From contig CADCWF010000320.1 in NCBI GenBank assembly GCA_902806345.1, positions 1 through 57,785 on the forward strand: DNA of 57,785 bases. The letters run 5' to 3'. Of this stretch, positions 11,996 to 52,832 are shown one piece after another; positions within the stretch are counted from its first letter, which is position 1, and each line of letters opens with the position of its first letter. This DNA is from an uncultured Thermomicrobiales bacterium. GTDB lineage: Bacteria; Chloroflexota; Chloroflexia; Thermomicrobiales; UBA6265. Below the pieces are notes generated by a model that ran no database searches, was not told the DNA's origin, and saw only the letters and a program-made list of their open reading frames with translations. Position numbers and translations under genes: made by a program.

Positions 11996-13381
11996 GTGAA
12001 GGACTACCGCGCCTACAGCTACTGGCTCGAGACCTGCGGCGATGACCTCACCCCGCGGCCACCGCTGGCCGGGTCGACCGAGGTCGACGTCGCGATCCTC
12101 GGTGCCGGGTTCACCGGGCTCTGGACTGCCTACCATCTGCTGAAGCGGGAGCCGGGGCTGACGGTCGCCGTCGTCGAGGCGGAGATCGCCGGCTTCGGCG
12201 CCTCCGGCCGCAACGGCGGCTGGTGCTACGCCGGGATGGCCGTGCCCCCGGCCGAGATGACCCGCCGCTACGGCGAGGAGTCGGCCCGGGCGACCGCCCG
12301 GGCGATGATCGGCTCCGTCGACGACGTCGAGGCGGTCGCCGCCGAGGAAGGGATCGCTGCCGACATCACCCGCGGCGGCGCGATCGAGTTCGCCCGGGCC
12401 GAGTACCAACTGCCGAAGATCCGGGCGATGGCGGAGGAGTTCGCCGCGATCGGCCTCGGCGACCGCGTCGTCTGGCTCGACCCGCCCGAGGCGGCCGCCC
12501 ACCTCAACGTGCCGGGCGCCCTCGGGGCCGTCTGGACGAAGGACGGGCTGGCCGTCCAGCCGGCCAAGCTCGTCCGCGGACTGGCACGGGCGGTCGAGCG
12601 GCATGGCGGGGTCATCTACGAGCGGACCCCGGTCCTTGACTACACGGGCGGCGAGCGTCCCGTCCTGGTCACGGAGCGGGGCGAGGTGCGGGCGCGCCGG
12701 GCCATCATCCTGGCCGGGGAGGCCTATCTGGCGCGCCTGGACAAGCTGCGGCGGCACGTGATCCCGCTGACCTCGAACATCGTCCTGACCGAGCCGCTGC
12801 CCCCCGACGCCTGGGAGGAGATCGGCTGGGAGGGGCGAGCGACGGTCGGCGGGTTCGGCCCGAGCGGCGGCTACATCCAGCGCACCGCCGACGGCCGGAT
12901 CGCCTTCGGCCCCTACTGGGCGCGCTACCCCTTTGCTTCCCGCGTCGACGACGCGCTCGACCACGACGAGGAGGTCTACGAGCGCGCCCGCCGCTCGCTC
13001 CGGACCTGGTTTCCGCAGACCGAGCAGTGCCGGATCACCCATGCCTGGGGCGGCGTCCTCGGCGCCCCCCGCGACCAGATGCCGACGATGGGCTTCAACC
13101 GGCGGACCAAGGTCGGGCTCGCCTTCGGCTACACCGGCGAGGGCGTCGCCGCGGCGAACCTCTCCGGCCGGACCCTGGCCGACCTCATCACCGAGACCGA
13201 CTCGGTGCTGACCCGTCTGCCGATGGCCAACCACCTGCCGAAGGAGTGGGAGCCGGAGCCGTTGCGCTGGGCCGGCGTCAACTACGTCCGCAAGGCGTAC
13301 CGCAAGCTGGACGAGGAGGCCGAGCGGACCGGCAGCTACCCGAAGCGGAAGACGATGGCGCAGCTCCTGTTCGATCGGTAG
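11996..13381 (+). CDS. FAD-dependent oxidoreductase (DAO/PuuB-like), copy 1
   Basis: A 461-residue protein starting at the GTG at 11996 (VKDYRAYSYWLETCGDDL). The Rossmann FAD motif is VDVAILGAGFTGLWTAYHLL (residues about 30-49), followed by EAEIAGFGASGRNGGWCY, typical of glycine-oxidase and gamma-glutamylputrescine-oxidase relatives. The C-terminal FAD-contact region is GFGPSGGYIQRTADGRIAFG and FGYTGEGVAAANLSGR. It probably oxidises an amine or N-substituted amino acid; the substrate is unknown. A close paralogue is at 38731-40113 on the other strand, nearly identical over the first 45 residues, so one copy arose by duplication. It diverges from gltX. Confidence 0.88.
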   Translation: MKDYRAYSYWLETCGDDLTPRPPLAGSTEVDVAILGAGFTGLWTAYHLLKREPGLTVAVVEAEIAGFGASGRNGGWCYAGMAVPPAEMTRRYGEESARATARAMIGSVDDVEAVAAEEGIAADITRGGAIEFARAEYQLPKIRAMAEEFAAIGLGDRVVWLDPPEAAAHLNVPGALGAVWTKDGLAVQPAKLVRGLARAVERHGGVIYERTPVLDYTGGERPVLVTERGEVRARRAIILAGEAYLARLDKLRRHVIPLTSNIVLTEPLPPDAWEEIGWEGRATVGGFGPSGGYIQRTADGRIAFGPYWARYPFASRVDDALDHDEEVYERARRSLRTWFPQTEQCRITHAWGGVLGAPRDQMPTMGFNRRTKVGLAFGYTGEGVAAANLSGRTLADLITETDSVLTRLPMANHLPKEWEPEPLRWAGVNYVRKAYRKLDEEAERTGSYPKRKTMAQLLFDR

Positions 13382-13829
13382 GTCATGAGCGGCGGCGGCG
13401 TCTGCTCGGGGCGAGCCCTCACCCCCGGCCCCTCTCCCGATGCGGGGGAGAGGGGAGCACGCCGACCCGACGGGAACAGTCTTTAGTGAACCCGACGGCA
13501 ACTCTCCGCTCCGGTGGCTCGGCTTGTCGCGAGCCGGTCCACGATCAGGCTCGTCAACCCGAACTTCACGTGGGCCGCGACCATCGCGGTGATCCTGGCC
13601 GGCTGATCCGTACCCGGCATCAGGCCGACCCCGAAGGAGGGGCCGACCGAGACGGAGACAAATCCGAGACTGACTCGAGGCCCATCCCGAACCGGTCGTG
13701 GCGGCTCAACCCGGCGAGAACGACGTCCCTGCGGATCGCCTCGGACTCGGGCCCCAGCTCTCCACGGGCCATGCCGACTCGCGATAGAGTGCAACCCTCA
13801 ACCGCCGCCGGACCTTCGAGGAGCAACGG
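13382..13829. other. Intergenic region with one repeat and a possible gene remnant
   Basis: About 450 bases. It contains repeat copy A at 13416-13456. On the minus strand, 13483-13794 is an open frame of 103 codons whose second half (FVSVSVGPSFGVGLMPG, then ARITAMVAAHVKFGLTSLIV) looks protein-like and membrane-compatible. No family was recognised and no ribosome site is convincing, so it is not called as a gene. Confidence 0.4.
13416..13456 (+). repeat. CCCTCACCCC palindromic element, copy A
   Basis: CCCTCACCCCCGG followed by CCCCTCTCCC, a short GATGC loop and GGGGGAGAGGGG. It begins 34 bases after the stop of the FAD enzyme and is oriented with that gene. Confidence 0.85.
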
Positions 13830-15552: not shown

Positions 15553-16965
15553 ATGACCGCGGAATCCCTGACGCGCGATGAAGCCACGGCCCTCGCGACG
15601 ATCGCCCAGCGGCTCGACCGCCGGCCCCGGCCGACGCGCCACCCCGCCGTCGTCAAGCAGCGGCTGCACGAGACGGTCCGCGCCCTCGGCTGCGTCCAGC
15701 TCGACGCCATCTCCGTCGTCACCCGGACGCACGAGACGGTGCTCTGGAGCCGCCTCGGCCGCTACGACCCAGCGCTCTTCGCCGAGCTGCACTACCCGGA
15801 CGCCGCGCTCGCCGAGTACTGGGCGCACGCCGCCGCCCTGATCCCGATGGAGGACCTGCCGCTCTACCGACGGGTCATGGAGCGGTACCGACGGCAGGAC
15901 GAGGCGCCGGGGTCGTGGGCCGAGTCCAACCGGGAGACGATCGAGCGGGTGCTGGCGATCATCCGGGAAGAAGGCGCCTGCCCGTCGCGGCGGTTCGAGC
16001 GGACCGGCGGTAGCCGGCCCGAGCCGTGGGCTTGGTGGGGCGGCAAGGAGGAGCGGCGGGCGCTCGACCACCTCTGGTCGCGGGGCGAGCTGATGCCCCA
16101 GCGCCGGATCGGCTTCGAACGGGTCTGGGACGTGACGGAGCGCGTGGTCCCGGCCGCGGTGCTGGCCGCCCGGCCGACCCCTGAGGAGGAGCGGCGGGCG
16201 TTTGCCCTCAAGGCGCTGCGGGCACTCGGCGTCGGCACCGCGGGCTGGGTGGCCGACTACTTCCGCGCCGGCTCGACGCCCCACGTGCCCGTCCGCGAGA
16301 CGGCCAAGGAGCTTGGCGCACTCGCGGCCGACGGTCTGGCCGTCCCCGTCGCGATCGCGGGTCTCGAGGAGCCGGCCTGGCTCGACCCGTTGCTGCTGCA
16401 GCGGCTCGGTGACCTGCGGGAGGGGCGTGGCCGGCCTGTCCTGACGACGCTCCTCTCGCCCTTCGACAGCCTCGTCTGGCACCGTGGGCGGGCGCTCGCC
16501 CTCTGGGGATTCGACTACCGGTTGGAGAGCTACACCCCGGCCGCGAAGCGTCGCTACGGCTATTACACGCTGCCGATCCTCGACCGCGGCCGCCTCGTCG
16601 GCCGGGTCGACCCGTCGCTCGACCGCCGCGCCCGGGTCCTCACACTCCGGGCCGTCCACCTGGAACCGGGCGTCCTGCCCACGCCGGCGCTCGCCGTCCG
16701 CGTTGCCGGCGCGCTCTGGGACCTCGCGGGATTCATCGGCGCGGACGAGGTCGCTACCGTTGCGAGCGACCCGCCGGGGTTCGGCCCGGTGCTGGCGGGA
16801 GCACTTGCCCTGCCTCCGTCGACCATCGTCCCGACCCAAGCGGGACGCGTCGCGGCCGACGCCCCGCATCCGTCTGATACGGAATCTGGCTGGACGGTTC
16901 CGGTATCCGGCGCCGGGCCCTCACCCTCAACCCCCTCTCCCACCGCGCGGAAGAGGGGGCTCTAG
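15553..16965 (+). CDS. YcaQ/AlkX-type DNA glycosylase family protein (winged helix)
   Basis: About 470 residues of the winged-helix YcaQ family (Pfam HTH_42); characterised members excise alkylated or cross-linked bases. The family's catalytic QxD motif is visible near the N-terminus as LGCVQLDAISVV. THETVLWSRLGRY and EYWAHAAALIPMEDLPL follow, and LLSPFDSLVWHRGRALALWGFDYRLESY with RYGYYTLPILDRGRLVGRVDPSLDR are hallmark C-terminal segments. ATG 15553 fits the AAGG at 15541 better than GTG 15544. The last 30 or so residues (after about 16875) are encoded by the inserted 131-bp repeat element, so the original C-terminus was probably replaced. Confidence 0.88.
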   Translation: MTAESLTRDEATALATIAQRLDRRPRPTRHPAVVKQRLHETVRALGCVQLDAISVVTRTHETVLWSRLGRYDPALFAELHYPDAALAEYWAHAAALIPMEDLPLYRRVMERYRRQDEAPGSWAESNRETIERVLAIIREEGACPSRRFERTGGSRPEPWAWWGGKEERRALDHLWSRGELMPQRRIGFERVWDVTERVVPAAVLAARPTPEEERRAFALKALRALGVGTAGWVADYFRAGSTPHVPVRETAKELGALAADGLAVPVAIAGLEEPAWLDPLLLQRLGDLREGRGRPVLTTLLSPFDSLVWHRGRALALWGFDYRLESYTPAAKRRYGYYTLPILDRGRLVGRVDPSLDRRARVLTLRAVHLEPGVLPTPALAVRVAGALWDLAGFIGADEVATVASDPPGFGPVLAGALALPPSTIVPTQAGRVAADAPHPSDTESGWTVPVSGAGPSPSTPSPTARKRGL

Positions 16966-17005
16966 TGGCCGTCCGAACAGAACGAATCAACCGGATTCCG
17001 TATCA
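16875..17005. repeat. 131-bp MITE-like element with TGATACGGAATC ends
   Basis: The outer ends are inverted repeats: TGATACGGAATCTGGCTGGA at 16875 against TGATACGGAATCCGGTTGAT reading inward from 17005, 17 of 20 matching. Copy D of the CCCTCACCCC palindrome sits in its centre, about 43 bases from each end. A degenerate element of almost the same length is at 34317-34446, and single ends are seen at 26455 and 31982-32001. It overlaps the 3' end of the YcaQ-family gene and encodes that protein's last residues. Confidence 0.75.
16918..16961 (+). repeat. CCCTCACCCC palindromic element, copy D
   Basis: CCCTCACCCTCAACC then CCCTCTCCCACCGCGCGGAAGAGGGGG. It is the centre of the 131-bp inverted-repeat element and lies within the 3' end of the YcaQ-family frame. 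Confidence 0.8.
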
Positions 17006-22538: not shown

Positions 22539-22581
22539 GCCCTCGCCCCCTACCCCCTCTCTCGATGCGCGGGAGAGGGGG
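22539..22581 (+). repeat. CCCTCACCCC palindromic element, copy E
   Basis: CCCTCGCCCCCTACCCCCTCTCTCGATGCGCGGGAGAGGGGG. It lies in the gap between the binding-protein gene and the fused ATPase-permease gene and forms an inverted pair with copy F. Confidence 0.85.
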
Positions 22582-22645
22582 ACGATGCCGCGGTGTGTCA
22601 TCCAGCTCCGCCGCGTCACGGCGTTCGGTCCGTGGTGCCGAAGGC

Positions 22646-22687
22646 TCCCCTCTCCCGCGCATCGGGAGAGGGGATGGAGGTGAGGGA
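22646..22687 (-). repeat. CCCTCACCCC palindromic element, copy F
   Basis: CTCCCCTCTCCCGCGCATCGGGAGAGGGG then ATGGAGGTGAGGG. On the minus strand it follows the binding-protein stop by 41 bases in the same orientation as that gene. Confidence 0.85.
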
Positions 22688-25614: not shown

Positions 25615-25656
25615 TTCGCCTGGCGACACGCCCGGCGCGGCGTGAAGGAGCAGGCG

Positions 25657-26457
25657 GTGATCGATCCCCGTCGGATCGCGGTCGGGCCGATCCTGCTGCT
25701 CGGGATCACCTCGCTTGTCGGGCCGTCGGCCGCCGCCGTCGAGCAATGGTGGCAGCCGGCGACGGACGTGTCCTGGCAGATCCAGCTTTCCGGTGACCTC
25801 GACACCGAGATCCCGGTCGATGTCTACGACATCGACCTGTTCGACACCCCGAGGGCGACCATCGCCGACCTGCAGGACGACGGCCGCCGGGTGATCTGCT
25901 ACTTCAGCGCCGGGTCGTACGAGAACTGGCGACCGGACAAGGGCAGGTTCCCCGAGAACGCCCTCGGCAAGCCGCTCGACGGCTGGCCGGGCGAGCGGTG
26001 GCTCGATATCCGCTCCGCCGCGGTTCGCCGGATCATGCTGGCTCGGCTCGACCTGGCGGCGGATAAGGGCTGCGAGGCGGTCGACCCCGACAACGTCGAC
26101 GGCTACGCCAACCGGACCGGGTTCAGCCTGAAGGCGGCCGACCAGGTGCGCTACAACCAGTTCCTGGCCGGGGCCGCCCACGCCCGCGGGCTGGCGGTCG
26201 GACTCAAAAACGATGTGGAGCAGATCCCGGCGCTTGTCGACAACTTCGACTTCGCCGTCAACGAGGAGTGTTTCCGGTACGACGAGTGCGGCACTCTCGA
26301 ACCGTTCATCGCCGCCGGCAAACCGGTCTTCCAGATCGAGTACGTCAAGCCGGCGCGGGCGGACGCGATCTGCGGCGAGGCAAACCGGTTGGGGTTCCAG
26401 ACGCTGATCAAGAAGCTCAGCCTGTTGGCCTGGCGGATCGACTGCGGCGACCGCTGA
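25657..26457 (+). CDS. Secreted GH114 (endo-alpha-1,4-polygalactosaminidase-like) protein
   Basis: About 266 residues. GTG 25657 is chosen over GTG 25642 because AAGGAG (25645-25650) lies six bases before it. A signal sequence (RRIAVGPILLLGITSLVG) leads to a TIM-barrel domain of the GH114/TM1410 type: WWQPATDVSWQIQLSG, VYDIDLFDTP, RRVICYFSAGSYENWRPD, GERWLDIRS, and the acidic segments GCEAVDPDNVDGY and FDFAVNEECFRYDEC that hold the likely catalytic Asp and Glu. GH114 enzymes cut galactosaminogalactan-type polymers. The stop codon TGA at 26455 is the first three bases of a TGATACGG repeat end. Confidence 0.85.
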   Translation: MIDPRRIAVGPILLLGITSLVGPSAAAVEQWWQPATDVSWQIQLSGDLDTEIPVDVYDIDLFDTPRATIADLQDDGRRVICYFSAGSYENWRPDKGRFPENALGKPLDGWPGERWLDIRSAAVRRIMLARLDLAADKGCEAVDPDNVDGYANRTGFSLKAADQVRYNQFLAGAAHARGLAVGLKNDVEQIPALVDNFDFAVNEECFRYDECGTLEPFIAAGKPVFQIEYVKPARADAICGEANRLGFQTLIKKLSLLAWRIDCGDR

Positions 26458-26815
26458 TACGGTCTTCGGATGATCTGTTTGCCTACGACATTGGCTAGAC
26501 GCATCCCGTCTTCCTAAGCAAAGCGCATGATCTCTCGCCAGGGTGGGCCGATCGTTCGGTCGTTTTCCGGGCCGGAGAGAGATTCTTCGCCTGCGGGCTC
26601 AGAATACGGAGGTAGGTGGGCGGTTACCATCCTCCCACCCATCCTCCTCGGGGGCCGACTCAAGGAGGATGGGAGATCGGGTGGTAGGTGAACGGATCAA
26701 CCGGATTTCGCAGTGCACCGTGTCTCGGGGCCGAACCGCCTCCGCTCCCGACACACCGGGAGCGGAGGCGACGATCGACCGAGGGATCGTGTGGGCGCTG
26801 GTGGTGCCGGACCGG
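26458..26815. other. Intergenic region between convergent genes, with repeat ends
   Basis: About 358 bases, less GC-rich than its surroundings at the left. The left end begins with the TGATACGG-like element terminus that overlaps the GH114 stop, and a related inverted end (AACGGATCAACCGGATTT) is at 26690-26707, so this is probably a diverged repeat element of about 250 bases. A terminator-like stem-loop lies inside. Confidence 0.5.
26638..26673. terminator. Stem-loop between convergent genes
   Basis: CCCATCCTCCT at 26638-26648 pairs perfectly with AGGAGGATGGG at 26663-26673, an 11-bp stem with a 14-base loop. It could end transcription from either side; no strong T tract is present. Confidence 0.5.
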
Positions 26816-30580: not shown

Positions 30581-31819
30581 ATGCCGAACCGTTCCAACCG
30601 TCGGCCGATCGCCTGGTTGACGAGGACCCTCCTCCTGGTCGCGGTGCTGGCCCTGCTCGGCCCGGTGGCGGTGGTGGCTGGACTCTCCAGTATCGGCACC
30701 GTTGCCGCCCAAGCCCAGGATCAAGCCGCGCAACCGCCGACGCAGGCCGTCAACGTCGAGTTGATCCTCGATTCCTCGGGGTCGATGGAGCAGGATGTCG
30801 GGGGCGGCGAGACGCGGATGCAGGCCGCGAAGCGGGTCTTGCGCGATGTCATCGCGGCGATCCCCGAGCGGGAGGGGATCAACGTCGGCTTCCGGATCTA
30901 CGGCCACGAGGGGAACAACACCGAGGCGGGCCGTGCCGAGAGTTGCCAGTCCTCCGAGCTGGTCGTGCCGATCGCGGGCGTCGACAAGGCGGCCCTAAAC
31001 GCCCAGGTCGACGCAGCGAGGCCGGTCGGCTGGACCCCACTGACCATCTCGCTCGAGCGCGGTGCCGAAGATTTCGAGCCACCGGCCGAGGGGACCGTCA
31101 ACGCGATGGTGATGGTCACCGACGGTCTCGAGACGTGCGGCGGTGACCCCTGCGCGGCGGCGCGCTCGATCTACGAGGGCGATGTCCGGGCGACGATCCA
31201 CGTCGTCGGGTTCGGCCTCACCGCCGAAGAGCAGGGGACCATCGCCTGCATCGCCGAGAACGGCGGCGGCCTCAACCTCTCGGCCGGCAACGCTGCCGAG
31301 TTGAGTACGGCGTTGTTCACGATCCTGGAAGAGCTTCAGGTGGTCATCTCCACCGGCTTCCTCGAGATCGAGGAGTTCGGCGGCATCTTCCCGCGGGCGC
31401 TCATCCAGGGCGGGACGCAGGCCACGGATGCGAACCCCGAGGGCGAGGCAATCGAGATCCGGCTGACCGACAACAATCGGGTCGAGCTCAACGTCGGCGT
31501 CTACGACGTGAGCTGGGACAACCCCAGCGGCGAGGAGACGCGGATTCGGGCCAACATCGAGGCGGGCCGGACGACCTGGATCCGCGGCTCGCTCCTCAAG
31601 TTCCCGCAGGGCGCCGGCGAGATCTATCTCGTCACGGACCAGGGCGGCGTCGTCATCTGGCAAGACCAGTTCGAGCAGGGTGACTACGTCTGGGTGCTGC
31701 CCGGCATCTACCGGATGGAGCTGCTCGAGCGGGTCGGCGACCCGGTCCTGATCGGGGCCGAGATGCAGACGCTGCCGGGCACGGCGACCCAACTCGAGGT
31801 CTTCACCGCTGGGTCGTAA
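30581..31819 (+). CDS. Secreted von Willebrand factor A domain protein
   Basis: About 412 residues. ATG 30581 is preferred to ATG 30563 because AAGGGAG lies just upstream. Signal peptide: basic NRSNRRPIAWLTR, a long hydrophobic run, cleavage near VAAQAQ. A VWA domain follows (about residues 60-240): VELILDSSGSMEQDV is the metal-ion-dependent adhesion site DxSxS, the Thr is in VGWTPLTISL and the Asp in MVMVTDGLETCGGD, so the site is complete. The C-terminal 170 residues are beta-rich with no recognised family. VWA domains bind proteins in a Mg-dependent way, so this may partner the large repeat protein encoded divergently. Repeat copy G begins 36 bases after the stop. Confidence 0.9.
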   Translation: MPNRSNRRPIAWLTRTLLLVAVLALLGPVAVVAGLSSIGTVAAQAQDQAAQPPTQAVNVELILDSSGSMEQDVGGGETRMQAAKRVLRDVIAAIPEREGINVGFRIYGHEGNNTEAGRAESCQSSELVVPIAGVDKAALNAQVDAARPVGWTPLTISLERGAEDFEPPAEGTVNAMVMVTDGLETCGGDPCAAARSIYEGDVRATIHVVGFGLTAEEQGTIACIAENGGGLNLSAGNAAELSTALFTILEELQVVISTGFLEIEEFGGIFPRALIQGGTQATDANPEGEAIEIRLTDNNRVELNVGVYDVSWDNPSGEETRIRANIEAGRTTWIRGSLLKFPQGAGEIYLVTDQGGVVIWQDQFEQGDYVWVLPGIYRMELLERVGDPVLIGAEMQTLPGTATQLEVFTAGS

Positions 31820-31855: not shown

Positions 31856-31900
31856 CCCTCACCCCCCAACCCCCTCTCCCGATGCGCGGGAGAGGGGGAG
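31856..31900 (+). repeat. CCCTCACCCC palindromic element, copy G
   Basis: CCCTCACCCCCCAACC followed by CCCTCTCCCGATGCGCGGGAGAGGGGG, one of the best-conserved copies. It lies between the VWA gene and the convergent sulfotransferase gene, oriented with the VWA gene. Confidence 0.88.
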
Positions 31901-31981
31901 CCCATGACGGACTCGACTGAACGGATCGGCCGGCGGGGTGGTCCGTTCGGTCGACCGCGGGGGAGGGAAGATCGGGCACTT

Positions 31982-32001
31982 GTCCATCGGACTGCGTATC
32001 A
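31982..32001 (-). repeat. TGATACG-type element end at the sulfotransferase stop
   Basis: Read on the minus strand this is TGATACGCAGTCCGATGGAC, close to the TGATACGGAATCCGGTTGA ends of the 131-bp element. Its first TGA (32001-31999) is the stop codon of the Stf0 gene. Confidence 0.65.
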
Positions 32002-32781
32002 GTCGTCTCGGCCCAACTCGTTCCGCGTCTCCTCGAAGCGGACGACCCAGGCTTCGGTTTCGTCGTCGGCGAGTTTGACCGTCCGCGGCTGGCCGAGATC
32101 GAGGTCCCGCGGCGGCTCGACGCCGAGGAACTGGAGCAATTCCCGGGTCGTCTCCTGGTAGCGGTCGACGAACTCCTCGTAGACGACGTGCATCGGTGCG
32201 ATGTCGCCGTCGCCGAAGAACCGCTCGATGGCCGCTTCCTCCTTCTCGATCGAGCGCAGCAAGGTGGCGATGCCGGCGAAGTCGAACGCGGGTGTCTTGC
32301 CGGTTCGGCGCGACTGCTTGACGATCGATCGCCGGCCCTGCCCGGTTCGCCCTGCCCTCGCCTCCTCCTTGCCCCAGATGCCGGACTCCTTCGCCTTCCA
32401 GTAGGAAATGGCTTGGCGGAGCTTGTCACGGCGGGTGATCCGGAGGTAACGCAGGTTCGGGAAGAGCTCGCCCAGGATCGCCGGCAGCGGCAGTTCGGCG
32501 AAACGCGGCTCGACGCGGGCGGTGCGCTCCAGGTGGAGCAGGTGGGCGTACAGCAGTTTGGCCCCGAACACGCCGTTCTCGGTCGCCCGCTCGCGCATCA
32601 GGTGGTCGACGAAGTCGGCAAGGCTCGTCGTGCCCCATTTGTTGGCCCAGAAGCCCATCTTGTGCCCGAAGTGCTCGCGGGGGTCGCCGGCGAGGTTCGT
32701 CGCGTTGAGCGCCTGGCCGAGCAGGGTGCTGCCGCTGCGCGGGGTGGCGAGGACGAGGTAGGTCGAAACGATCTCCGGCAT
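31999..32781 (-). CDS. Stf0-family sulfotransferase
   Basis: A 260-residue cytoplasmic enzyme. ATG 32781 begins MPEIVSTYLVLATPRSGSTLLGQAL, where TPRSGST is the 5'-phosphosulfate-binding loop for PAPS. Then come DPREHFGHKMGFWANKW, LRYLRITRRDKLRQAISYWKA (the 3'-phosphate-binding segment) and VVYEEFVDRYQETTRELLQFLGV near the C-terminus. These match Stf0, the enzyme that sulfates trehalose in mycobacteria; the acceptor here is unknown. The stop codon is supplied by an element end. The gene runs in the same direction as the channel-like gene, 55 bases downstream of it, and may share its transcript. Confidence 0.9.
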   Translation of the reverse strand: MPEIVSTYLVLATPRSGSTLLGQALNATNLAGDPREHFGHKMGFWANKWGTTSLADFVDHLMRERATENGVFGAKLLYAHLLHLERTARVEPRFAELPLPAILGELFPNLRYLRITRRDKLRQAISYWKAKESGIWGKEEARAGRTGQGRRSIVKQSRRTGKTPAFDFAGIATLLRSIEKEEAAIERFFGDGDIAPMHVVYEEFVDRYQETTRELLQFLGVEPPRDLDLGQPRTVKLADDETEAWVVRFEETRNELGRDD

Positions 32782-32836
32782 CGGCGGGGTGGCGCTCCTG
32801 GCGGCGCCGCCCGTGGCCGCGCCGCCCGCGTGGGGT

Positions 32837-34159
32837 TCAGGACAGGAAGAAGACGGCGTAGGTGGCAACGAACAGGATCCCGGTGAACACGGGCCAGTAG
32901 AGCAGCGTCGGCCAGATATTGTTGCGGTCGTCAAAGAACGCCGGAGCGTCGGGTCGGTCGCGGACAATGGCGTTGACGGTCACCAGCAGGATCAGCCCAT
33001 AGAGCGTGAACGGCAGCGTCTCGATGTAGGAGACCTGACCGGCGGAGACGGTGTCGCGGATACCGTTGTGCTCGACGACGACTGTCAGGAGCAGGGCACC
33101 GGTGGTGGCGATGACGGCCAGCGTCTGGAAGCCGAACCGGGAGCGGAGGTTGGGGTCGCTGGTGCCGAGCAGCATGATCCCGTAGAGCAGGCCGGCGATG
33201 GCGAGGGTGAACGGGAGGTGCTTGAGGAGCGGTCCGTGGTAGTCGCGCTTGAGGCCGAGGTTGAAGTAGAGCTCCGGCGCCTGATTGCGGTAGGAAACGT
33301 CGGTCAAGCCGAACCGGGTGTTGTAGGAGTGGAGGGTGTAGGTGAAGCCGGAGATGTAGGGGGTCCAGACGCTGGAGACCAACTCCTCCTCGATCCCGGG
33401 CCGTGAGGTCGGCACGATGTCTTTGTAGGAGGCGAAATCGGGGACGAGCACGGCGCCCCGGTCGGCGCTCGCCGACCAGAGGCGGAACCAGACATCCTGC
33501 CGGTCGAGCGGGTAGCGCGAGTAGTCGAAGGCCTGGCGGAGGGTCACCTCGAAGTACCACCCGATCAGGAGCGCGTCGCCGAGGTCGCTCCGGTACGCCT
33601 CCTCGAACACCCTGGTGTCGATCGCCTCGGGGAACACGACGGCGCGCTCGATCTCGGCCGGGATCGCGTCGGCGTAGCGCTGCCAGACGTAGCCGGCAAC
33701 AAGCACGTTGTCGCCGGAGAGGAACTCGAACTGCTGGAGGAAGAGCCCGGTCGGAATTTGGTAGGTCGGGGCGTCCGGTGGCAGGTGGGCCGCGAGGAAG
33801 GCGTCCGCCTCGGCCGGTGACGAGACGCGGGTGCCGGTCAGGCCGTCGAGTTCGACCTCCGAGTCGACGATCTGCCAAAGTCCGACGATGCCGACCAGGA
33901 GGGTCAAAGTCCAGGCCGCCGCCGTCCGCTTGAGGCTCCGGGTCCGCAGTCGCTCCGGGCGGAAGACGGCGACGGCCAGGAGCAGCAGGGCGACGACGGC
34001 CAGGAGCAGCGCTTGGCCCACCGGTCGCCCGGTCTCAAGCACTCCGCGGCCGGCGGCGAGGCCCGCCGCCCGGCGCAGCAGCACGACCGCCAGCCCAGCG
34101 GCGACCAGGCCCGCCACGAGGACGACGAGGTGGATGATGCGGCCGCGTGGCTCGGTCAC
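32837..34159 (-). CDS. Membrane protein resembling a pentameric ligand-gated ion channel
   Basis: About 440 residues from GTG 34159. A TTG at 34189 extends the frame, but a strong hairpin at 34192-34222 leaves no room for a leader there. Three hydrophobic segments open the protein (HLVVLVAGLVAAGLAVVLL, ALLLAVVALLLLAVAVF, AAAWTLTLLVGIVGLW). A soluble beta-rich region of about 200 residues follows, containing WYFEVTLRQAFDYSRYPLDR then QDVWFRLW. Four helices end the protein: HLPFTLAIAGLLYGIMLLG, GFQTLAVIATTGALLLTVVV, VSYIETLPFTLYGLILLVTV and YWPVFTGILFVATYAVFF. The order beta domain, YPxDRQ, PELYFNLxLKR, then four helices with VSYxxT before the third resembles Cys-loop receptors. Function is unproven; a general unknown membrane family is the alternative. 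Confidence 0.7.
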   Translation of the reverse strand: MTEPRGRIIHLVVLVAGLVAAGLAVVLLRRAAGLAAGRGVLETGRPVGQALLLAVVALLLLAVAVFRPERLRTRSLKRTAAAWTLTLLVGIVGLWQIVDSEVELDGLTGTRVSSPAEADAFLAAHLPPDAPTYQIPTGLFLQQFEFLSGDNVLVAGYVWQRYADAIPAEIERAVVFPEAIDTRVFEEAYRSDLGDALLIGWYFEVTLRQAFDYSRYPLDRQDVWFRLWSASADRGAVLVPDFASYKDIVPTSRPGIEEELVSSVWTPYISGFTYTLHSYNTRFGLTDVSYRNQAPELYFNLGLKRDYHGPLLKHLPFTLAIAGLLYGIMLLGTSDPNLRSRFGFQTLAVIATTGALLLTVVVEHNGIRDTVSAGQVSYIETLPFTLYGLILLVTVNAIVRDRPDAPAFFDDRNNIWPTLLYWPVFTGILFVATYAVFFLS

Positions 34160-34191
34160 GGGTCGTTCGGCCCTGCCCCCGACAGACAACC

Positions 34192-34222
34192 ACCCGGGCC
34201 GGCTTGGCGAGCCGGCCCGGGT
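34192..34222. terminator. Perfect 13-bp hairpin (ACCCGGGCCGGCT)
   Basis: ACCCGGGCCGGCT at 34192-34204 pairs with AGCCGGCCCGGGT at 34210-34222 around a five-base loop. It lies just before the channel-like gene and after the disordered-protein genes on the minus strand, so it may terminate or attenuate transcription between them. Confidence 0.7.
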
Positions 34223-34316
34223 TTCCTCGAACGGATTCAGGCGGTTAGGTTACCGCGTCGGGTCGGAGGCGGGGAAGGAACGCAGTCGAGGTCGCGCTCT
34301 TGATCCTGGCTGGGGT

Positions 34317-34446
34317 TGTACGGAACCCGGGTAAATCGTTCCGGTGCCTAACGGACGGCCCTCGCCCCCAACCCCCTCTCCCGCGCATCGGGAGAGGGGA
34401 CTCTTCCCCAGCGGGGAGTAGAAGCATTCAAGCGGATCTCGTATTA
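34317..34446. repeat. 130-bp MITE-like element with TGATACGG-like ends, degenerate copy
   Basis: The left end TGTACGGAACCCGGGTAAAT and the right end (read inward) TAATACGAGATCCGCTTGAA both resemble TGATACGGAATCCGGTTGA. Copy H of the palindrome is central, and the length matches the 131-bp element at 16875. The right-end TAA is the stop codon of the disordered-protein gene. Confidence 0.65.
34359..34400 (+). repeat. CCCTCACCCC palindromic element, copy H
   Basis: CCCTCGCCCCCAACC then CCCTCTCCCGCGCATCGGGAGAGGGG, the centre of the 130-bp element. Confidence 0.85.
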
Positions 34447-35052
34447 GGTGGCCGAGCGGAAGGCGTCGCCGCCCGCCTCGGCGTCGTCCTGGATCGGTTT
34501 CGGGCCGCCGCCGCCGACGGACTGGCCGCCGCCGAGGTCGCCGGAGCCGGCGGGTCGGGCCTGGGCCGATCCCCCGATCGCCTCGCGGGAGCCCTCGCTG
34601 GCGGCGATCTCCTGGTTGTTCTGGCTGACGCCGGTACCGCCACCGGTGTGGGCGAGACCAAGGGCGGAGTCGTTCGGGTGCTGGACGAAGCCGCCGGTTG
34701 TGCGGGCGGTATCGTAGCCGGTCGCCGGGTGGGTCGGTCCGGCGTGGGCCTGCCCCTCGGTGCCGGAGACGCCCTTGCCCGGGCCGGCCGGCCCCCAGTC
34801 CATCTCCATCGTTCCGTCGCCGCCGCCGGGGCTTGCCGGGGGGGCGCCGGCTGTGCCAGCCGCATCGACGCCGCTGGCCGCTCCTAGCTGCGATCCGCCG
34901 CCGGCGTCTCCGACGAACAGGGTGCCGCTGTCGTCTTCGTTGCCGGTGGTGGAACTGGCGCCGAGGTTGAGATCCCCCTCGGTGCCGCGGCCCGGTTGCT
35001 TCAAACCCGGTGCCCGTTTGTCGGTATCTTCGGTGGCGAAGCCCTGGCTCAT
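34444..35052 (-). CDS. Intrinsically disordered Gly/Ala-rich acidic protein, unknown
   Basis: A 202-residue protein without hydrophobic segments. ATG 35052 follows GAGGAG. It is dominated by Gly, Ala, Ser, Thr, Asp and Pro with few hydrophobic residues and no Cys (for example MSQGFATEDTDKR, GDAGGGSQLGAASGVDAAG, GGGQSVGGGGPKPIQDD). No signal peptide is visible. No family was recognised; the composition recalls hydrophilic stress-associated proteins, which is only an analogy. The stop codon TAA is the terminus of a repeat element. It is the second gene after the similar disordered gene at 35077, with 24 bases between. Confidence 0.65.
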   Translation of the reverse strand: MSQGFATEDTDKRAPGLKQPGRGTEGDLNLGASSTTGNEDDSGTLFVGDAGGGSQLGAASGVDAAGTAGAPPASPGGGDGTMEMDWGPAGPGKGVSGTEGQAHAGPTHPATGYDTARTTGGFVQHPNDSALGLAHTGGGTGVSQNNQEIAASEGSREAIGGSAQARPAGSGDLGGGQSVGGGGPKPIQDDAEAGGDAFRSAT

Positions 35053-38730: not shown

Positions 38731-40113
38731 CTAATGCCGCCCCAGCCTTTCAACGAGGCTTGACCCGCTCGGCGCCACCCCTGTCCGCGTCGCCTCGCGG
38801 TCGAGCCTGGCAAACCCTTCCTGGACGAAGCGGATGCCGGCCCAGCGCAACGGCTCCGGTTCCCAGCGCGGGGAGCGGTGGTTGACCGAAGGCAGCGCCG
38901 TCAGCGCCGAGGGGGTGGCGGTGATGAGGTCAGCCAGGACGCGGCCGGAGAGGTTCGCCGTCGAGACCCCGGAGCCGGTGTAGCCGTAGGCGCCAGCGAT
39001 GCCGCGGTCGGCGTGGAAGAAGGTCGTCGGCATCCAGTCGCGCGGCATCCCGAGGGGGCCCCCCCAGGCGTGGGAGAAGCCGATCCCCTTCAAGGAGGGG
39101 AACCAGGCCTCGACCATGCTCCGCAACATGGCGTGGGTCGGCTCGTGCCGGTCCTGGGCGTCGGTGATCCGGGAACCGCGCTGGTAGGGGGCGCCCCGAC
39201 CGCCGAAGAGGATGCGGCCGTCGGCGGTGCGCTGGAGGTAGTCGACCGAGTAGCGGGACGAGGCGACCAACTCCCGGCCCGCCCAGCCGATCTCCGCCCA
39301 GCGCTCCTCCGGGATCGGCTCGGTCAGCACGATCAGGGAGTACATCGGGACGAGTGCCCGCCGCAGCCGGGCGAGGCGCGAGAGGTACGCCTCGCCGGCC
39401 AACACCAGCGTCTTGGCGGCGACATCGCCGTAGGGGGTGAGGAAGCGCGGCTTCGGGCCGGGGACGTAGTCTTCCACGTTGGTCCGCTCGTAGATCGTGG
39501 CGCCCCGCCGCTCGACGGCTCGGGCCAGTCCCCGGACCAGCTTGCCGGGGTGGATGACCGCGCCGTGTGGCGAGAAGAGACCGGCTTCGACATCGGTAAC
39601 GCGGACCCTCTCGGCAACCTCCTCGGGGGAGAGCAACCGGTAGTGCTCGCCGAGGCCGAGCGCCTGGGCCGTCTCGTAGGCGCCGGTGATGGCGGGGAGC
39701 TCGTGGCGGCCGCGGGCGAGGCGGAGGGCACCGCTCATCAGGAAGCCGCAGCCGATCCCCTCGGCGGCGTCGACCCGGCCGACCTCGTCGACCGACTCGT
39801 GCATCGCCTTCGAGACCGCCCGCGCGGCCTCCGGCCCGAACCGCTCGCGCAGACGGCCGAGGGTGACCGGGAAGCCGGGGTAGCACCAGCCACCGTTGCG
39901 GCCGGAGGCGCCATAGCCGGCGATCTCCGCTTCGACGAGCGCGATCTTGAGCGAGGGGTCGCGCTGCTGGAGGTAGTAGGCGGTCCAGAGCCCGGTGAAG
40001 CCGGCGCCGAGGATGGCGACGTCGACCTCGGTCGAGCCGGCGAGGGGCGGCCGGGGGGTGAGGTCATCGCCGCAGGTTTCGAGCCAGTAGCTGTAGGTGC
40101 GGTAGTCCTTCAT
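38731..40113 (-). CDS. FAD-dependent oxidoreductase (DAO/PuuB-like), copy 2
   Basis: A 460-residue paralogue of the enzyme at 11996-13381. The first 45 residues (MKDYRTYSYWLETCGDDL, then VDVAILGAGFTGLWTAYYL) are nearly identical to copy 1, and the remainder is clearly homologous (EAEIAGYGASGRNGGWCYPG, YLQRTADGRILFGGRGAPY, YGYTGSGVSTANLSGR). It probably oxidises an amine. Its position four genes before a polyamine-type ABC importer and next to a peptidase-like amidohydrolase suggests amine use, but this is inference. ATG 40113 is preceded by AAGGAG at a long spacing. Confidence 0.88.
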   Translation of the reverse strand: MKDYRTYSYWLETCGDDLTPRPPLAGSTEVDVAILGAGFTGLWTAYYLQQRDPSLKIALVEAEIAGYGASGRNGGWCYPGFPVTLGRLRERFGPEAARAVSKAMHESVDEVGRVDAAEGIGCGFLMSGALRLARGRHELPAITGAYETAQALGLGEHYRLLSPEEVAERVRVTDVEAGLFSPHGAVIHPGKLVRGLARAVERRGATIYERTNVEDYVPGPKPRFLTPYGDVAAKTLVLAGEAYLSRLARLRRALVPMYSLIVLTEPIPEERWAEIGWAGRELVASSRYSVDYLQRTADGRILFGGRGAPYQRGSRITDAQDRHEPTHAMLRSMVEAWFPSLKGIGFSHAWGGPLGMPRDWMPTTFFHADRGIAGAYGYTGSGVSTANLSGRVLADLITATPSALTALPSVNHRSPRWEPEPLRWAGIRFVQEGFARLDREATRTGVAPSGSSLVERLGRH

Positions 40114-40282
40114 GCCGGAGTGGTGTCTCCTTGGCGGTTGAACGATGGTCTCCTATCAGGAGTATGGTATCTGCCGGACGTCAAGGAACGATCGAGCAAT
40201 CGGTGCGCCAGGGTGAACGGAACGCGGTGTTCCTGCATCCCCCGACGTCCCGCGTCCCCCTCGGGCGCCCCGCGCACCCCCC

Positions 40283-40361
40283 CGTCATCCCGAGCGAAGC
40301 CGAGGGATATCGTTCCTGAGCGGCTATCGACGAGATCCCTCGGCTTCGCTCGGGATGACGG
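40283..40361. repeat. 79-bp palindromic repeat (GTCATCCCGA type), copy 2
   Basis: Arms CGTCATCCCGAGCGAAGCCG and CGGCTTCGCTCGGGATGACG are exact complements. The length matches copy 1 at 1771-1849. It is between two minus-strand genes, the GIY-YIG gene and FAD copy 2. Confidence 0.85.
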
Positions 40362-40372
40362 AGGCGGCAGGA

Positions 40373-43827: not shown

Positions 43828-43933
43828 CTCGGATTCTTCGATGAGTGTCGCGTTCTCCACCGCGAGTCCTCACGTCCAGTCCGTCTCCCGGCAAGAGATG
43901 GGAGTGGGAGAGACGTTGCCGGCGAACGCGAAG

Positions 43934-43975
43934 CCCTCACCACCGGCCCCTCTCCCGATGCACGGGAGAGGGGAG
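43934..43975 (+). repeat. CCCTCACCCC palindromic element, copy I
   Basis: CCCTCACCACCGGCC then CCTCTCCCGATGCACGGGAGAGGGG. It lies 106 bases after the potD stop and 17 bases before the potA start, in the orientation of the operon. Confidence 0.85.
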
Positions 43976-43992
43976 AACGGTTCCCACTTGCC

Positions 43993-47259: not shown

Positions 47260-47268
47260 CGCGGGATT

Positions 47269-47310
47269 CCCTCACCCCCTGCCCCTCTCCCGCCGCGGCG
47301 GGAGAGGGGA
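47269..47310 (+). repeat. CCCTCACCCC palindromic element, copy J
   Basis: CCCTCACCCCCTGCC then CCTCTCCCGCCGCGGCGGGAGAGGGG, nine bases after the potC stop and oriented with it. Inverted pair with copy K. Confidence 0.88.
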
Positions 47311-47373
47311 GCACCCTTGGACGACGGTTAGCCCATGTGCGAACGGGTCACAGATCCGGCGACCACGACGCTT

Positions 47374-47420
47374 CTCTCCCTCTTCTGCCGCAACGGGAGA
47401 GGGGGCTGGGGGGTGAGGGC
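47374..47420 (-). repeat. CCCTCACCCC palindromic element, copy K
   Basis: CTCTCCCTCTTCTGCCGCAACGGGAGAGGGGG followed by CTGGGGGGTGAGGG, reverse orientation, head-to-head with copy J. Confidence 0.82.
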
Positions 47421-47535
47421 TTCGCCGGAGTTGAGGGTAGCGCCGTGGCAGGGGATAATCCCCTGGTAGGGCGCGGCCGAACGGCGCCGCGTGCCGTGGC
47501 GCGTCGTCGGCGCCGGGGAGTCGATCCGCCACCCG

Positions 47536-52673: not shown

Positions 52674-52679
52674 GGGAGT

Positions 52680-52725
52680 CCCTCACACTCCCGACCCCCC
52701 TCTCCCGCCGCGGCGGGAGAGGGGG
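52680..52725 (+). repeat. CCCTCACCCC palindromic element, copy L
   Basis: CCCTCACACTCCCGACC then CCCTCTCCCGCCGCGGCGGGAGAGGGGG. It lies between the binding-protein gene and the permease gene, six bases after the first stop and in the same orientation. Confidence 0.87.
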
Positions 52726-52832
52726 CGCACCCGGTGGTTGTTGGCCGTTGAGGCGGACACTGTGCTCGGCCGCCGCGCGAAGCGCCGCCGTCCGCTTTGA
52801 TGGCGCGCACGGATGTGGGCCTTCGGCCCGTG

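Follow-up and report, generated by a model that had tools for sequence, protein, structure and literature searches.

The window analysed here, a stretch of 57,785 nucleotides, is contig 320 in the 5.08-Mb draft genome (377 contigs) of an uncultured Thermomicrobiales bacterium. Copies of a short repeat, classed below as a MITE, adjoin or overlap four of its genes. Genes were called with an in-house codon-usage model, applied to draft genomes, and we take as presumptive the names GH114, Stf0 and YcaQ, which were assigned in the preliminary description from sequence alone. The relevant features, with their basis in brackets, are:

15553-16965, plus strand, YcaQ-family gene (gene call, orthologues)
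16878-17002, best preserved MITE of the window, 125 bp (PWM 28.9 and 39.1; sequence)
25642-26457, plus strand, GH114-type gene, 271 aa (gene call, orthologues)
26455-26457, plus strand, TNA target copy forming the TGA stop of the GH114-type gene (sequence, gene call, orthologues)
26458-26712, decayed MITE copy with two recognisable ends (PWM 16.9 and 15.6; sequence)
31862-31998, decayed MITE copy (right end PWM 13.3; shared core repeat D8)
31999-32001, minus strand, TNA target copy forming the TGA stop of the Stf0-type gene (sequence, gene call, orthologues)
31999-32781, minus strand, Stf0-type sulfotransferase gene, 260 aa (gene call, orthologues)
34319-34443, MITE copy, 125 bp, terminal inverted repeats (TIRs) TACGGAACCCGG / GCGGATCTCGTA (PWM 23.9 and 21.6; sequence)
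34444-34446, minus strand, TNA target copy forming the TAA stop of the gene at 34444-35052 (sequence, gene call, PWM)
34444-35052, minus strand, gene for a low-complexity (disordered) protein, 202 aa, with its stop on the target copy (gene call)
13414-13461, 22539-22586, 22644-22686, 43932-43979, 47262-47314, 47378-47424 and 52677-52726, hairpin cores without TIRs

The preliminary description held that three genes stop exactly at an element end, and the codon-model calls bear this out, with stops at TGA 26455-26457 (plus strand), TGA 32001-31999 (minus strand) and TAA 34446-34444 (minus strand). Likewise, a fourth copy, at 16875, does lie out of frame and encode the C-terminus of the YcaQ-family protein, as had been proposed. 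This gene reads into the copy and stops on a TAG inside the MITE (16963-16965); residues 442-470, its final 29 codons, are MITE sequence in a frame that differs from that of the TGA. Intact relatives of this protein mostly end at about residue 400-430.

Element ends were scored with a weight matrix (PWM) trained on 190 other termini, with five shuffled windows as control. Ends in the window score from 13 to 39, whereas the best of the five shuffles reached 8.7. The strongest are those at 17005 (minus strand, 39.1), 16875 (plus, 28.9), 34316 (plus, 23.9) and 34446 (minus, 21.6), and a weaker set comprises 26455 (plus, 16.9), 26715 (minus, 15.6) and 32001 (minus, 13.3). The end at 26455 is genuine: it marks the left side of a decayed copy that spans 261 bp, up to 26715, and whose right flank, GTG, has lost its match to TGA. 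The copy at 16878-17002 is flanked by TGA (16875-16877) and TCA (17003-17005), and that at 34319-34443 has as its opposite target copy TTG (34316-34318), a single base off TTA. The copy at 31862-31998 retains the right TIR and the internal hairpin; its left end has no recognisable sequence and perhaps lay near the TAA (31817-31819) of the convergent gene 30581-31819.

The window also holds another dispersed palindrome, at 40279-40364 (a 35-bp inverted repeat of 94% identity, CCCCCGTCATCCCGAGCGAAGCCGAGGGATATCGT) and at 1762-1803. Two paralogous genes, 11996-13381 and 38731-40113, separated by some 25-28 kb and oppositely oriented, share 241 bp of 87% complementarity.

Element ends and the duplicated target

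A scan of the 5.08-Mb genome for the end TGATACGGAATCCGG, allowing up to 2 mismatches, gave 65 termini; the reversed pattern gave 0. The copies are dispersed and short (~80-360 bp), and carry terminal inverted repeats of the form TACGGAATCCGG...CCGGATTCCGTA. With at most 1 mismatch the end was found in 27 of the 41 genomes of the relatives search, the window's genome included. MAGs that bear the labels Rubrobacter, Chloroflexia and Thermomicrobiales have it as well. All of these genomes are drafts, whose contigs are broken by repeats; copies in different genomes were counted as separate insertions only where their flanks differ, duplicates being dropped by flank sequence. Fresh, well-preserved copies lie in the Rubrobacter-labelled MAGs (loci L134-L171; JACCZN, JACDAJ, JACCWD and JACDFX contigs). 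The family is otherwise found mainly in Chloroflexota, and the Rubrobacter copies may reflect either horizontal spread or mislabelled bins.

Flanks were compared for 97 copies with both ends present. In 57 of these the same triplet stands outside TACGGAATCCGG on each side in direct orientation, 7 have it inverted, and none of the 97 shows a matching 4-mer. The middle base of the triplet is the same on both sides in 73 copies, against 26 expected and a maximum of 45 in 10,000 permutation runs; in the Rubrobacter-labelled set the triplets match in 18 of 19. All four middle bases occur (TCA 20, TGA 19, TTA 8, TAA 8), and in about half of the targets a C precedes and a G follows, a preference for CTNAG. 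Because the direct repeats comprise three bases and never four, the triplet is a TNA target-site duplication (TSD) and the element begins at TACGG. Flank comparison thus indicates that the TGA or TAA belongs to a 3-bp duplicated target outside an element that starts TACGGAATCCGG, which refutes the earlier placing of these bases in the repeat terminus.

A perfect TSD is absent from 40 of the 97 pairs, mostly old copies, and only 3 of 12 match in the window's genome; the 7 inverted pairs would require recombination or decay. One copy (L235) is nested inside another repeat; uninterrupted copies of that repeat can be aligned through the junction and have TCA only once there. At L123 there is an apparent empty site; it falls within diverged copies of a different element and is the weaker evidence. 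L245 and L272, where the alignments are gapped, were excluded from this evidence.

Stop codons as insertion sites

We tabulated copies by stop frame at 280 termini from the window's genome, G005, G021, G004, G012, G019, G042, four Rubrobacter-labelled MAGs and a few others. The three cases of the window fall outside this set because their cores carry at least 2 mismatches. The tabulation reveals the excess that the preliminary description had anticipated: 27 called genes have the outer TNA as their stop codon, the next offset, +16, has 5 genes, and every other offset has at most 3. The peak persists at stricter gene scores (22 and 13). The exact stops are TGA in 19 genes, TAA in 8 and TAG in none, against a background of 465/106/369. 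TAG thus accounts for 39% of background stops (369 of 940 called genes), and from these counts the chance of drawing none in 27 is about 2 in a million. A TNA target excludes TAG, and its absence is what such a target predicts.

At one locus in G005 (C18, L048, 1499-1662) two convergent genes stop on the two ends of a single element, with TAA on each strand; the flanks of this element are inverted, not direct.

Would TNA targeting alone place insertions on stops so often? Our null model assumed landing on TNA and survival only outside genes, with free TNA sites counted in the same DNA. Of the extragenic TNA sites 10.5% are stop codons, a share that rises to 12.7% with weighting by the target consensus. 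Among 163 non-genic insertions 26 (16%) lie on stops and 137 away from them; the expected number is 17.1 raw (P = 0.021) or 20.6 target-weighted (P = 0.13). Copies are depleted inside genes, which hold 4% of insertions but 68-78% of TNA sites, and in divergent gaps: the intergenic copies number 4 in divergent, 73 in convergent and 43 in tandem gaps, where there are 925, 1098 and 1910 TNA sites, respectively. The stop pattern is thus mostly insertion-site preference plus loss of harmful insertions, with a small residual of 1.3-1.5-fold, and little or no additional targeting of stops is needed. As to the original argument that chance could hardly place a terminus on three stop codons, the coincidence does recur genome-wide and in relatives, but TNA targeting and genic loss explain most of it.

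It had been suggested that the element targets gene ends or is kept where it provides a stop. A copy might be kept, for instance, if its hairpin served as a terminator or stabilised mRNA 3' ends. Active targeting and positive retention alike we regard as unlikely. Overall, 26 copies on stops exceed the 17-21 expected, and the copies in the window form strong hairpins (z of -1.7, -3.4 and -2.1 against shuffles), one of them clearly better than its shuffles. The excess is confined to tandem gaps, however, with 12 stops against 5.2 expected (P = 0.005); convergent gaps have 14 against 11.2 (P = 0.22), and overall the target-weighted null stands. In tandem gaps the stop is the site furthest from the promoter of the next gene, and the same excess is expected if insertions near that promoter are not tolerated. 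Moreover, the large majority of insertions lie off stops.

A probable IS630-family partner

The ends of the MITE are shared with autonomous elements. One locus (L210; G043/G004:C113) is a 1153-bp insertion sequence (IS) with perfect TIRs identical to the MITE ends. Its transposase, with Pfam domains HTH_33/HTH_29 and DDE_3, is split over two overlapping frames, and a TTCAAAAAAGGGGG run at the overlap suggests production by programmed frameshifting. The C-terminal part matches NCBIfam NF033545 (IS630) at 127.7 bits (cut-off 100). This is the only two-ended IS found, and its flanks, TCA and TAA, differ. The same end, followed by TNA, lies 25-28 bases after IS630-type transposases in G019:C199, G000:C19 and G000:C274, the last two in the window's own genome. 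G005, G012, G021 and G041 yielded no autonomous copy.

TNA duplication is typical of IS1031, so we also searched up to 25 genomes for IS5-type partners (PF01609, PF13359, PF13586). The 30 PF01609 loci and the PF13359 and PF13586 loci that were read had no MITE ends in the right place, and this candidate was rejected. An origin from IS5/IS1031 (PIF/Harbinger-like) MITEs, which would likewise account for TNA, or from REP/BIME palindromes spread by RAYT is very unlikely, the MITE ends matching IS630-type insertion sequences. A REP-like hairpin core, occurring also without TIRs, would fit the latter origin. These cores, CCCTCACCCCC..CCCCTCTCCCG..CGGGAGAGGGG, lie at the window positions listed above and may be either relics of greater age or a REP-like family of their own.

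We favour, with a probability of about 0.92, a reading in which the MITEs are moved by an IS630-family transposase with a TNA target, hits on stop codons being harmless and hits within genes being lost. The transposase would insert the MITE at TNA, preferably CTNAG, and duplicate three target bases. TNA matches TGA and TAA whichever strand the gene is on (TCA and TTA when read from the opposite one) and excludes TAG. An insertion at a stop codon would leave an intact stop on the gene side and the gene unharmed, while insertion elsewhere in a gene would usually be destructive and the copy lost; surviving copies would then be found in 3' intergenic space and on TGA or TAA stops. Shared ends make an IS630-type transposase the probable mover of copies such as those in the window, and the rarity of genic insertions suggests that selection, not targeting, removes them.

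The MITE described here is new, but its kind is known, as IS630 members with a similar TIR and 3-nt repeats have been published. ISDrpg7 and ISDrpg8, IS630-family elements of Deinococcus radiopugnans DY59, have the TIR TACGGACTCCGATTAA and 3-nt repeats TGA/TAA/TCA (PMC10017437). By that published description they resemble the MITE in TIR (TACGGAATCCGGTTGA here) and in 3-nt TNA repeats; they are autonomous IS, whereas the elements here are MITEs, and the passages describing them do not mention a coincidence with stop codons. IS630/ISY100 and Tc1/mariner elements, of the same transposase family (HTH plus DDE_3) as the partner IS, insert at and duplicate the 2-bp TA (PMC2170065), whereas the MITEs duplicate the 3-bp TNA. 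On Thermus thermophilus plasmids, an IS630-type element of ~1076 bp (L340-L344; transposase 51-52% identical, termini TA...TA) likewise duplicates TNA in all five copies (TGA 4, TAA 1). Its TIR, TACCCTTT, is unlike that of the MITEs, and at none of the five copies does an annotated gene stop on the target. ISTth6 of Thermus, also IS630, which may or may not be the plasmid element, was surveyed as having 2-bp repeats (PMC6352166).

Gene ends with and without an element

If the element itself bore the stop in its terminus (TGATACGG) and truncated genes, as the idea that the repeat supplies the stop of the preceding gene would have it, orthologues should not end where the MITE-flanked genes do. 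We compared them. For the GH114-type protein, 6 of 8 relatives stop 1-2 residues beyond alignment position 268 and the window protein 3 beyond; the two most distant relatives are unaligned at the C-terminal end. For the Stf0-type protein, all 8 relatives end at most 9 residues from the same place. Orthologues of two further exact-stop genes, in G021 (L252, 78% identical to a relative in the window's genome) and in G005 (L048), likewise end at about the same residue. Since orthologues end at about the same residue, the stop is the gene's own TGA or TAA, duplicated as the TNA target, and the GH114-type and Stf0-type genes were not truncated by the MITE.

An element-borne stop does occur, in the 5 genes that end at offset +16: they enter the element in a different frame and stop on its own TGA of TACGGAATCCGGTTGA. 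Together with the element-coded end of the YcaQ-family gene these are what such an account has in its favour, but for the exact-stop class it is contradicted by the direct repetition of the outer 3-mer with all four middle bases and by the orthologue ends, and is hardly credible. At L136, L161, L024 and other loci of the +16 class the element-coded tail reads TESG before the internal TGA. The enterobacterial RU-1 elements, small and with inverted repeats, are fused to gene 3' ends and duplicate a TA target (PMC2759123). The YcaQ-family gene resembles these cases, its stop replaced and an element-coded tail added, while the exact-stop MITEs differ from them in that the stop is preserved, not lost.

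In place of a repeat that supplies stops, insertion by the IS630-family transposase would yield a rule: a transposon that duplicates TNA can enter TGA or TAA harmlessly, and not TAG. Its prediction that TAG is not hit is borne out here, and the rule should extend to any IS or MITE that targets TNA. Such copies mimic gene-end elements in annotation and occasionally lend proteins new tails.

That stop codons also serve the transposon lineage as a safe harbour, beyond passive survival, we consider doubtful. If they did, a MITE ending in A would, at ATGA stop-start overlaps, keep the stop and rebuild the downstream ATG, and insertions between the genes of an operon would be doubly silent. Traces of this would be the excess in tandem gaps (12 against 5.2) and the two junction starts at L146 and L261.

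The last A of the element and a TGA target copy do form an ATG, and a gene starts there at the right end of L342, at L146 (position 6081) and at L261; these starts are annotated or called, those of L146 and L261 being called.
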